From: Paludibacteraceae bacterium
GTDB lineage: Bacteria; Bacteroidota; Bacteroidia; Bacteroidales; Paludibacteraceae
Reading direction: 5' to 3'
Assembly (NCBI GenBank): GCA_024693065.1
Contig: JAILLP010000023.1
Location: 1 to 64,000, forward strand
Length of the DNA: 64,000 nt
Every line of letters begins with the position of its first letter. Positions within the stretch are counted from its first letter, which is position 1. Below the pieces are notes generated by a model. That model was given only the letters and a program-made list of their open reading frames with translations, searched no databases and was not told where the DNA came from. Positions 456-3,902 of this stretch are shown in pieces. The position numbers were made by a program, and so were the translations under genes.

Positions 456-1673
456 TTAGTATAACTCGCTTTGTATGATTTTTACAGGGACTGGCAACTC
501 TTTAGCCATCAATATATTGGCTATGTCTTCTGCTTCCTCTTTTGTGAAATTTCCCACGACTTCAAAGTGTCCGACCGTGATTTCGACGAGTATATGTGGA
601 TAAGAACATACATGTCCGTCCCATACGGTGGCGATTGTTTTACCTACGTTTTTCTTTGTTAATTCAGCTAAATCTTTCGCATCTTTATCGTCCTCAAGAC
701 TTATGTGGATGTGCCCGTCTGGTGATATCACTTTTGTCTTTGTGACTTGGTTGACGTCCATTGCCTTCCTCCCTTCGCTTTCTTGTGATGAAAGGGCAAT
801 CAGATTGAATATGTCCGATTCTTTACTGATGCTTTTGATTGCCCACGAAGGATATATGTTTGAAGGAATTATCTTTTTCTCCTTGGCTGTTTTAAGGTAT
901 TCTGAGATTTTTGCCGTGTCTTTTGCCATGGCCCAGCCAATAATGGGGTCATGGTATAAGGGATCTTTAGAATAAACGTCCGTGATTAGAAGTGCAAAGA
1001 TAGGGTTTATCTTTACGAGTTCTTCTTGAGTTATCTTTTCTGTCGCAGATGTTTGATTTTCAGATTCTTTTCCTGTTTCGTTGACGGCTACTATATTTTG
1101 TACGACTTCCTTCCCATCTGTGGTTTCCCATAACTCGAGATGTCCGGGTGTTTGAATCAACTTGAGGATACGTTCAGGGTCTCTTATGCCCTTCATCTGA
1201 ATGTGGATACGTCCTGCTGTTTCCGCCGCTTGAATGTCGGGATGCTTAACTCCGAATCTTTTTAGGCGGGAGCGCAGCACGTCCATCGTTTTTTCTGTTA
1301 CTCGCTTGACTTCCTCTTTTAGTATTTGGGATACTTGATCGTCTGATGAGGTGGCGTTGATTCTCTCTTTCATTTCCTGTGTGGAGAAAACAGTGTTTAA
1401 TGGAGAACCTGTTGCCTTGAAGGCTTCGGTAAAAAGGTCTACGAATTCGTTTTGCCGATTCTCTTGCATCTCTTCTGCCTTTATAATGGCTGATGTGAAG
1501 TTGGAATCGGTAGCATGTGCCTTTGCCATAGTTTTGAGTATATCTGGCACGGAGATGTCCATGACTACGTTCATGTCTTGAACTGGCATGTTGTTGGATG
1601 CCAATGAGTTGCATGAAACGAACCCTAGCGTGAACAGGGCGAAAAATAACATGGCGACTTTTATCTTTTGCAT
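456..1673 (-). CDS. Lipoprotein resembling the SecD periplasmic P1 domain
   Basis: 405 aa. A lipoprotein signal ends in GFVSC, with the lipidated Cys at residue 21. The mature part resembles the first periplasmic region of Bacteroidota SecDF along its whole length. It opens with MDISVPDILKTMA (about 38-50). The segment DVLRSRLKRFGV to GHLELWET (131-183) is the P1 base signature. The stretch from KTIATVWDGHVCSYP to VVGNFTKEEAEDIANIL and PVPVKII (about 345-401) matches the SecD segment just before its second membrane helix. The protein stops there, with no transmembrane segment after the signal, so it cannot be a translocase. It would be tethered to a membrane by its lipid. SecD P1 contacts emerging substrate during export; a role as chaperone, decoy or competitor is inference. 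It is transcribed alone, away from the rightward beta-helix gene. Confidence 0.75.
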   Translation of the reverse strand: MQKIKVAMLFFALFTLGFVSCNSLASNNMPVQDMNVVMDISVPDILKTMAKAHATDSNFTSAIIKAEEMQENRQNEFVDLFTEAFKATGSPLNTVFSTQEMKERINATSSDDQVSQILKEEVKRVTEKTMDVLRSRLKRFGVKHPDIQAAETAGRIHIQMKGIRDPERILKLIQTPGHLELWETTDGKEVVQNIVAVNETGKESENQTSATEKITQEELVKINPIFALLITDVYSKDPLYHDPIIGWAMAKDTAKISEYLKTAKEKKIIPSNIYPSWAIKSISKESDIFNLIALSSQESEGRKAMDVNQVTKTKVISPDGHIHISLEDDKDAKDLAELTKKNVGKTIATVWDGHVCSYPHILVEITVGHFEVVGNFTKEEAEDIANILMAKELPVPVKIIQSELY

Positions 1674-2165
1674 ATTCTTTCCTCGTGTTAATGAATGTTT
1701 TTTCGTGAACCTTTCATCGTATAAATATAGTCAATTATCTGAAATGAGTCAATCCACAATCGTTTTTTGATGTATTTTAGTTGATAGTGGTGGGGAAATG
1801 GTATCTTCTCTATGTAGTATGATTTTCATGTGCCTTCTTGCCCCGTATGTCCCTTTGATGGACTCTTAGCGTGTTTATTTATAGTTGTTCGCTAATGATT
1901 CTAAGGTATTTGCCATGCTTTTTGATCTTTGTTCAATAAAAATAAACAATATATTTTTCGTTTTTTTTATCTTTTTTTACCTTTGTACGTCAGTGATTAG
2001 TGGTGTTTCCGAATTCGATGAAATCGTGTGTAATATCCTAATTCTTTATTTATGGACTAAAGTGGTGATGTGAGATTATGATTTTCAGTTCGTATGCTTT
2101 AAGCGTTGTTACTGAATGTGTTATAAATCGCAAAACCTTATGTTAAAGATGGAAATTTAGTTGAT
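1674..2165. other. AT-rich divergent intergenic region
   Basis: 492 bp separate two divergent lipoprotein genes. It contains one good Bacteroidota -7 box on the plus strand (separate entry). The 62-codon ORF at 1885-2073 has no coding character. Nothing else was recognised. Confidence 0.6.
1978..1985 (+). promoter_or_regulatory. -7 box TACCTTTG for the beta-helix lipoprotein
   Basis: A perfect TAnnTTTG match in a T-rich tract, about 180 nt upstream of the start at 2166. A -33 TTG is not clear. If used, it gives a leader of roughly 170 nt. Confidence 0.4.
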
Positions 2166-3902
2166 ATGGGAAAAAATATAGTTCTTATTTTTGCGCCAAT
2201 AATGGTTTTGTTGGCATTTTTGGGATGTAGTGTGGATAATAATCCAATTGCAGAGGAGAGAACAGAGGCGGAGGCTGAAGTGCCGACCGATCTTTCTGAT
2301 AAGTTGATTCTAAACCGCCCGTATACCGACGGTAGTTATGGTTATGTGTTAGTCAACACTTCATCTTCTTTGGCTAGCCAGTTTACCCAAAAGAATACGA
2401 TTTATGAAATCCAGGATAAGATAGACCTAAACGGTGCCAGTTTCACGTTGCCGGCAAATGCGGTTCTGCGATTCAATGGTGGTAGCATTACTAATGGTAC
2501 AATTACCTTCGACAATACATATGTGGAGGGCTTGGTCAAGTTTACCGGTGTGACATTCAAAGGAACGCTTATCAATAAGGAGGTCGTTTTGTCATGGTTC
2601 GGTGCGGATGTGAGCAATAAGGACAATTCAACCATTATTAATCAGGTATTGGATGTTATTCCTGAAACGCTTGTCTTGGATGCGCTCTATCCGATTAATA
2701 AAAGTGTTGTGATCACCCATGGTGTGACGATCAGAGGTCTGGATTGGACAGAAAGCGTATATGCGAACATGTTCAATAATGCCGAGTATGGTATCCAGAC
2801 TAGTTCGAATATTACTGCGGTGAAGTTCTCTGAGAATGGAAAGGGTAGCTTGAACCTGTATGGTGTAAGTATCTTGGGTAATAAGAATCTCTATGGAGGA
2901 GGTAATCCTAACGATGGTCTTGAGACTTGTGGTATTTTCATGAAGACCAATGCAGGTTCATTGTCTGCCGTTATGGACTGTTCCATCGCAGGTTTCACCT
3001 ATGGTATTAAGGCGATAGGTGGATATATTGAGAAAATCAGGAGCACCTATTTTAGCCTTTGCCGTTTTGGTATGTATACGGTTTATACGTCTGATTTCAT
3101 CTGCCAAGATTGCCACTTCAATTCCAATATGCATAACTACAATTGGATAGATCGTAAGGTGACTGATGCCGATCCGAATGCGCTCCGTAATGTGGGTGGT
3201 GGTGTCAAAATAAAGAGAGTGGGTATGGTTCAATTCATCAACTGTAGATTCGAGTTCAACTTTATCCATTTCATTATAGATGAGGCGTCTACTATCGTAA
3301 ATGTTGAAAATAGTATTTTCGATGCCGCTGTGCATAGTTGTATTATGTTGTATAACGAGAACAATGCGAATAATATGATCGTTGCTTCGGAAATGTATAC
3401 TCCAAGTATCAACTGCATAAATATTTCGGGCAACACTTTCTCTCGTGGTGCTCGTTTGGAGAGATACCAGAATACTCCTTTGCCGGGATCTGCCATCATT
3501 TATGTCAGGGAGGGAAATAACCGGGGTATGAATTTCAATTTCTCCAACAATGTGGTGGTAGATAGTATCGAGGTGAATCAAGCTGTCTCTTCTTATGAGA
3601 AGACTATCTTCCGTATATACAATACAAGTAATAGTAGCGCAGGCGTGATTAATTCTAACGCAAACGATTTTAGCCATTGCAAGGCGGAGACTGTAGCTGC
3701 TGCGGTTACAGGTAGTACGGGCCGATTCACAATTAAGGATAATGGTAGTAATTTCGGAAACATTAGCCATCAGTTCCAGAATAACAGCGTGATTGACATA
3801 AAGAAAATGGAGGTGAATCCTGATGGGAAAATCGTCATTTGGAACACGCTGACGAATGGTAACACGGTGAGCAAGGACCTGATTATAGATCCTAATCAGT
3901 AA
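2166..3902 (+). CDS. Lipoprotein with right-handed beta-helix (pectate-lyase-like fold)
   Basis: 578 aa. The signal ends in LAFLGC, lipid Cys at residue 21. After a linker comes a segment typical of Bacteroidota beta-helix proteins (FTLPANAVLRFNGGSITNGTI, about 97-116). Then follow imperfect coils with FINCRFEFN, VENSIFD, ISGNTFSRG and FNFSNNVVVDS, as expected of parallel beta-helix rungs. Such proteins are usually polysaccharide lyases, hydrolases or adhesins at the cell surface. I see no catalytic signature that fixes a substrate, so enzyme activity is not claimed. The gene is monocistronic, ending at a strong shared hairpin with the convergent TonB receptor gene. Confidence 0.75.
   Translation: MGKNIVLIFAPIMVLLAFLGCSVDNNPIAEERTEAEAEVPTDLSDKLILNRPYTDGSYGYVLVNTSSSLASQFTQKNTIYEIQDKIDLNGASFTLPANAVLRFNGGSITNGTITFDNTYVEGLVKFTGVTFKGTLINKEVVLSWFGADVSNKDNSTIINQVLDVIPETLVLDALYPINKSVVITHGVTIRGLDWTESVYANMFNNAEYGIQTSSNITAVKFSENGKGSLNLYGVSILGNKNLYGGGNPNDGLETCGIFMKTNAGSLSAVMDCSIAGFTYGIKAIGGYIEKIRSTYFSLCRFGMYTVYTSDFICQDCHFNSNMHNYNWIDRKVTDADPNALRNVGGGVKIKRVGMVQFINCRFEFNFIHFIIDEASTIVNVENSIFDAAVHSCIMLYNENNANNMIVASEMYTPSINCINISGNTFSRGARLERYQNTPLPGSAIIYVREGNNRGMNFNFSNNVVVDSIEVNQAVSSYEKTIFRIYNTSNSSAGVINSNANDFSHCKAETVAAAVTGSTGRFTIKDNGSNFGNISHQFQNNSVIDIKKMEVNPDGKIVIWNTLTNGNTVSKDLIIDPNQ

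Follow-up and report, generated by a model that had tools for sequence, protein, structure and literature searches.

A free-standing SecD P1 domain on a predicted lipoprotein: a SecDF paralogue without transmembrane helices in two genera of Paludibacteraceae

We find that the gene at positions 456..1673 (minus strand) of the analysed window, i.e., a 64,000-nucleotide stretch of a Paludibacteraceae genome, encodes a SecDF paralogue that is cut down to its first periplasmic domain (P1); it is not a SecD. We consider this identity and origin, i.e., those of a SecDF paralogue without transmembrane (TM) helices, nearly certain. The complete explanation, in which the protein (orphan in the following) works as a passive periplasmic holdase, falls in our view a little short of probable. 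Sec biology has yet to settle what P1 does apart from its proton-driven cycle; the usual handles on P1 are laboratory fragments and P1 deletions. A natural P1-only protein, selected without the motor beside a full SecDF, would permit a direct test of this role. The orphan is also an example of how re-cutting of the first helix would turn a polytopic membrane protein into a lipoprotein. Searches of the open-licence literature brought up no paper on a SecD P1 protein that stands alone, nor on a system built on one; an earlier sequence-only reading of this DNA likewise knew of none.

Gene and domain content

The gene is covered by an ORF call as well as by Pfam, NCBIfam and profile searches. It comprises 405 amino acids plus stop without internal stops and encodes a lipobox signal peptide (FVSC21), followed by a near-complete SecD P1 (base and head), after which the protein ends. 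The type II signal peptide with its lipid-acceptor cysteine (residues 1-21, MQKIKVAMLFFALFTLGFVSC; 1611..1673, minus strand) is assigned based on PROSITE PS51257 (Cys21) and the family alignment with SecDF helix 1. The first P1 strand (MNVVMDIS) and the Bacteroidota helical insertion of P1 (about residues 34-110; 1344..1574, minus strand) are placed by the alignment with the genome's own SecDF and by the AF2 model. The base subdomain SecD_1st (PF21760, E 3.8e-10) spans residues 127-183 (1125..1295, minus strand) and the head subdomain SecDF_P1_head (PF22599, E 5.6e-15) residues 321-395 (489..713, minus strand). Both matches are above the Pfam cut-offs. NCBIfam SecDF models match with E-values down to 8.9e-76, restricted to the P1 part; the full-length cut-off is missed by far (255.7 of 1037 bits), which is normal for a single domain.

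When aligned with the own SecDF, the orphan shows 48% identity over residues 33-213 (E 4.5e-43) and 38% over 204-403 (E 2.1e-37), and the first match of a PDB sequence search is the P1 of Thermus SecDF (3aqo). The suggested similarity to SecDF is thus more than short chance matches. SecD-specific LEFWET and head residues are retained in the orphans, and no new fused domain was found in the orphan. SecD_SecF_C and Sec_GG, on the other hand, match the own SecDF only: the ORF ends right after P1, and the RND transmembrane helices, the proton-path residues and the P4/SecF half are all absent. Within the family, the linker that follows helix 1 in SecDF is gone, and the stop is found where SecDF runs on towards helix 2. 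The sequence-only reading had taken the whole mature protein for the large periplasmic domain. This holds for nearly all of P1 but not for its very start, i.e., the SecDF D1 motif LGLDLKGG, which directly precedes MNVVMEVS in the own SecDF, is absent from the window copy and 5 other aligned orphans; none is visible in the translation of the seventh (genome G371).

The AF2 model of the mature chain (pLDDT 87.4, pTM 0.81; first elements E12-20 and H22-76) shows the same order of elements as the own SecDF P1, which was modelled as a control. In a PDB fold search (E <= 0.001), the orphan retrieves SecDF entries only, with a TMt of 0.67-0.72 for 3aqo. The control retrieves SecDF entries as well as the SecD of the holo-translocon, with comparable values for 3aqo (TM 0.69-0.70). 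Large overall rmsd values are expected for both, because of the hinge between base and head and the Bacteroidota insertion. The initial proposal of a free-standing SecD P1 on a lipoprotein is right. 3aqo is a structure of this domain as well, obtained from an isolated construct; it is a laboratory fragment, whereas the orphan is natural, separately encoded, secreted, and equipped with an extra helical insertion.

Since the window starts with base 1 of its contig, only 455 bases remain beyond the 3' end of the gene. The missing downstream helices, which had been noted from the sequence, are indeed missing from these bases but are weak evidence taken alone. Within the window, positions 13-284 hold about three 88-bp repeats (TTCTCCG...CACGGAG), which are probably the reason why the assembly stops here. 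The location 456 bp off the contig end and beside a tandem repeat is what could speak for a broken normal secD, produced by sequencing or assembly. We assign virtually no probability to such an artefact: an intact SecDF of 1023 aa is encoded on a different contig of the same genome, so the orphan cannot be a SecD that was split or frameshifted, and independent assemblies of relatives show the identical gene form, which refutes the artefact in practice. The in-frame stop at the end of P1 and the signal peptide without the helix-1 linker argue in the same direction.

Signal peptide and anchoring

With the PS51257 pattern found at Cys21, the window orphan would be lipidated at this residue after Sec export. 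The strict PROSITE pattern fails in three orphans. Two of them, from genomes G002 and G371, carry a Lys8 that is too close for the strict pattern, while LTIGC and LTLGC fit otherwise. The third is one of the two orphans of genome G018 (contig C68). In this second G018 copy (L035:8964-10217, minus strand), a consensus lipobox is missing and the segment GCLFYLLCHQ still resembles helix 1; the copy is possibly a signal-anchored intermediate.

Downstream of Cys21, the window orphan reads CNSLASNN, without a surface-export signal (C-X-K-(D/E)2 or S-D-rich) as defined for Bacteroidota surface lipoproteins (PMC5080379). The anchor is therefore likely to face the periplasm.

The orphan signal peptides resemble SecDF helix 1, e.g., MQKKSITTLLFILLTLGCLSC compared to MQNKGIVKLFSVLLTLVCLFYLSF from the same genome. 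To quantify the resemblance, alignments to SecDF helix 1 were anchored at Met1 and compared with those of 330 hydrophobic N-termini as controls. Here, 6/7 orphans score higher than all controls. The window orphan is the exception, with 13/330 controls being as good, such that its likeness to helix 1 is not significant when taken alone. For the family, these alignments indicate that the signal peptide was derived from SecDF helix 1 by re-cutting. That is, the idea of a lipobox instead of helix 1 holds with respect to the lipobox, while the two segments appear homologous and no replacement took place. In outline, the cysteine of helix 1 would become a lipobox cysteine if LTLVC changed to LTLGC.

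Distribution, neighbourhood and promoter

We searched 101 related genomes and subsequently used an orphan profile on 358 genomes of the family. Among the matches listed, at least 7 complete orphans are found in 6 genomes (the window genome, G002, G004, G014, G371, and G018 with two), along with an additional fragment at a contig end of G003. Carriers make up 5/16 genomes of the window's genus and 2/4 genomes of another one (g4) among these matches; both genera belong to one family (Paludibacteraceae-type rumen MAGs). Among the matches listed, a complete P1 as lipoprotein, forming a clade of its own, is restricted to these two genera. Across the orphan's genomes, no conserved neighbour was found except secDF in G018 and G371. 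In these two, the orphan is located directly upstream of secDF, while G050 and G372 show an equivalent secDF setting without it. In G018, an ORF of 167 aa that likely encodes membrane helices (L046:11593-12096, minus strand) lies together with the orphan between a ybaK-like gene and secDF; it is missing in G050 and G372.

Most orphan copies are unlinked to sec genes. In G014 and G004, the orphan is flanked by dCMP deaminase and sua5-like genes; the corresponding place in G013 is taken by an rpsO-like gene. An S41 peptidase near these two copies was considered as a functional neighbour and rejected: it is part of the dCMP-deaminase locus, which G013 and other genomes possess without having the orphan. 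No phage, plasmid or viral contig was recognised as carrying a copy of this kind; full-length matches from a plasmid collection are about 33% identical, two of them annotated as SecDF. The copy from G371 (L128:5768-6916, minus strand) lacks about 80 residues of the helical insertion of P1. Since this gene is kept without most of it, the insertion is dispensable for gene retention.

Upstream of the window orphan, we identified a candidate -7 promoter box of TATATTTR type (TATATTTA; 1722..1729, minus strand) and, 20 bp before it, a candidate -33 TTG (1750..1752, minus strand), which is weak alone given an equally good match in 14% of random 250-bp stretches. A TATATTTR-type box precedes 7/7 orphans at a distance of 37-56 bp (e.g., TATATTCG for the G018 copy on C68), and secDF of genus g4 has one as well, about 70 bp upstream. 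By chance, TATATTT[AG] would occur in 27 bp of this window with a probability of about 0.0015. Given the box common to orphans and g4 secDF, the gene seems to have moved together with its promoter. An Rfam scan of the first 12 kb of the window gave a tRNA as its sole match. Divergently oriented to the orphan, positions 2166-3902 (plus strand) encode a 578-aa lipoprotein whose sequence resembles that of a right-handed beta-helix protein.

Phylogeny and selection

In a maximum-likelihood tree of 48 P1 domains, 7/7 orphans form one clade (100/100), placed with the SecDF of genus g4. A recent copy of the own SecDF as source of the window orphan was rejected (AU test, p 2.6e-49). Neither a single clade of g4 SecDF without the orphans (p 0.52) nor a position of the orphans as sister to all SecDF of the two genera (p 0.08) is rejected, and the placement is to be read with care because the orphan stem is long. 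Based on the tree, the orphan clade is put next to or inside the SecDF of g4, which gives a single origin, in a copy of secDF that is related to the one of the neighbouring genus. The three g4 orphans as a single clade are rejected (p 0.0064), which implies either transfer or duplication followed by losses. The same two options, the latter with many losses, would account for the presence at several chromosomal sites in two genera. We infer that the original duplication was a tandem one, just upstream of secDF.

Orphans evolve fast: their pairwise identity is 41-47%, compared to 66-80% among the SecDF of the two genera. For the closest pair (G014 vs. G004), omega is 0.395 (bootstrap 0.30-0.535), while the SecDF of the same two genomes yields 0.165 and its P1 0.211. 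Selection on the orphan is thus purifying but relaxed. Given the fast evolution and an omega about twice that of SecDF, part of the ancestral function may have been lost. Among 58 SecD-conserved positions, 30 are retained in at least 6/7 orphans, i.e., 19/29 after residue 250 compared to 11/29 before residue 185, which is a modest difference. Within the base, P161 is lost and I137 replaced by L in 7/7 orphans.

Possible function

The P1 of SecDF moves with the proton cycle (PMF-coupled) and presumably acts on the chain leaving SecYEG (review PMC8669966). The orphan has no proton-conducting helices and therefore cannot pull; it probably handles exported proteins without the motor. A passive holdase is the simplest reading. 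According to the comparisons above, secDF was duplicated and the copy lost everything after P1 as well as the D1 motif before it, helix 1 became a type II signal peptide, and the secDF-like -7 box was retained. In the holdase reading, Sec would export the product, which would then receive its lipid at Cys21 and be anchored towards the periplasm; there, P1 base and head, which in SecDF presumably grip the emerging chain, might bind unfolded or freshly exported polypeptides. It could hold these clients against back-sliding or aggregation, near the translocon or en route to the outer membrane, and would work beside the intact SecDF.

Periplasmic chaperones at the Sec exit, namely PpiD/YfgM and those of SurA type, are an analogy only: they have unrelated folds, and what they have in common with the orphan is the proposed mode of action, i.e., passive binding of emerging chains. 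Compared to SecDF/SecD, the orphan shares P1 base and head (in sequence and predicted fold), the homology of helix 1 and signal peptide (in the family), a similar promoter box, and descent according to the tree. It is without the TM helices after P1, the P4/SecF half, the D1 motif and the proton path. Furthermore, SecDF is polytopic and slower evolving, while the orphan is predicted to be lipid-anchored and evolves faster. A broader version of the holdase reading views the orphan as a lineage-specific, motor-free form of the substrate-gripping SecDF domain that captures Sec clients in the periplasm without proton coupling, its signal-anchor helix having been turned into a lipobox; P1 would then be a portable module for polypeptide binding, detached independently in several lineages of Bacteroidota. 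We regard this version as tentative and rather unlikely.

The main rival, still less probable, is a decoy P1 that binds SecYEG, YidC, SecDF or BAM and thereby tunes export, dampens SecDF or bridges Sec to the outer membrane. The secDF-like promoter box and the tandem with secDF in two genomes fit such a regulator or competitor. In E. coli, Sec-BAM membrane association depends on the SecD P1 domain (PMC7695460), and a P1 anchored to the outer membrane could play a part in it. However, conservation is lower at the base positions, which would contact the rest of SecDF, and the majority of copies is unlinked to sec genes. The roles suggested by the sequence-only reading, namely holding export intermediates, binding the translocon or acting as a dominant competitor, are all conceivable; the tandem itself fits a Sec-related origin and does not choose among them.

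The fast divergence and patchy distribution of the orphans, as well as the occurrence of other secreted P1-head proteins with extra or reduced parts in the phylum, could also indicate that the P1 scaffold was recruited for periplasmic binding unrelated to Sec, e.g., of peptides or ligands or in envelope-stress sensing. We consider this quite unlikely, given that the P1 architecture including LEFWET and the head residues is kept without any new fused domain. Even less credit goes to a decaying by-product of the secDF duplication without important function. It would account for the raised omega (0.395 vs. 0.165-0.21), the patchy presence and the internal deletion in G371, but in 7/7 copies the frame is open and both signal peptide and promoter box are present, omega is clearly below 1 (0.30-0.535), and the gene persists through dispersal across several loci in two genera.

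Shorter P1 proteins in the phylum

Shorter free-standing SecD-P1 lipoproteins are encoded in three genomes of the same family, each beside unrelated genes: G039 (285 aa; L048:8925-9782), G311 (277 aa; L142:3129-3962) and G307 (288 aa; L143:2603-3469), all on the plus strand. Secreted proteins that consist of little more than the P1 head are found at L139:3308-4192, L140:2944-3462, L141:2940-3380 and L144:2550-3365 (all plus strand). They stem from the distant Bacteroidota G414, G431 and G410 and, in a form with a different N-terminal part, from G307. Like the orphan, the members of both groups are secreted and TM-less and show a SecDF_P1_head match or similarity to a protein with one. Unlike it, they are shorter, without the Bacteroidota insertion, and match the orphan profile much more weakly, as compared by searches only. 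Stand-alone P1-head secreted proteins occur in 3/98 other genomes at the sampled depth, i.e., sporadically in the phylum. Those of G431 and G410 have neighbours in common.
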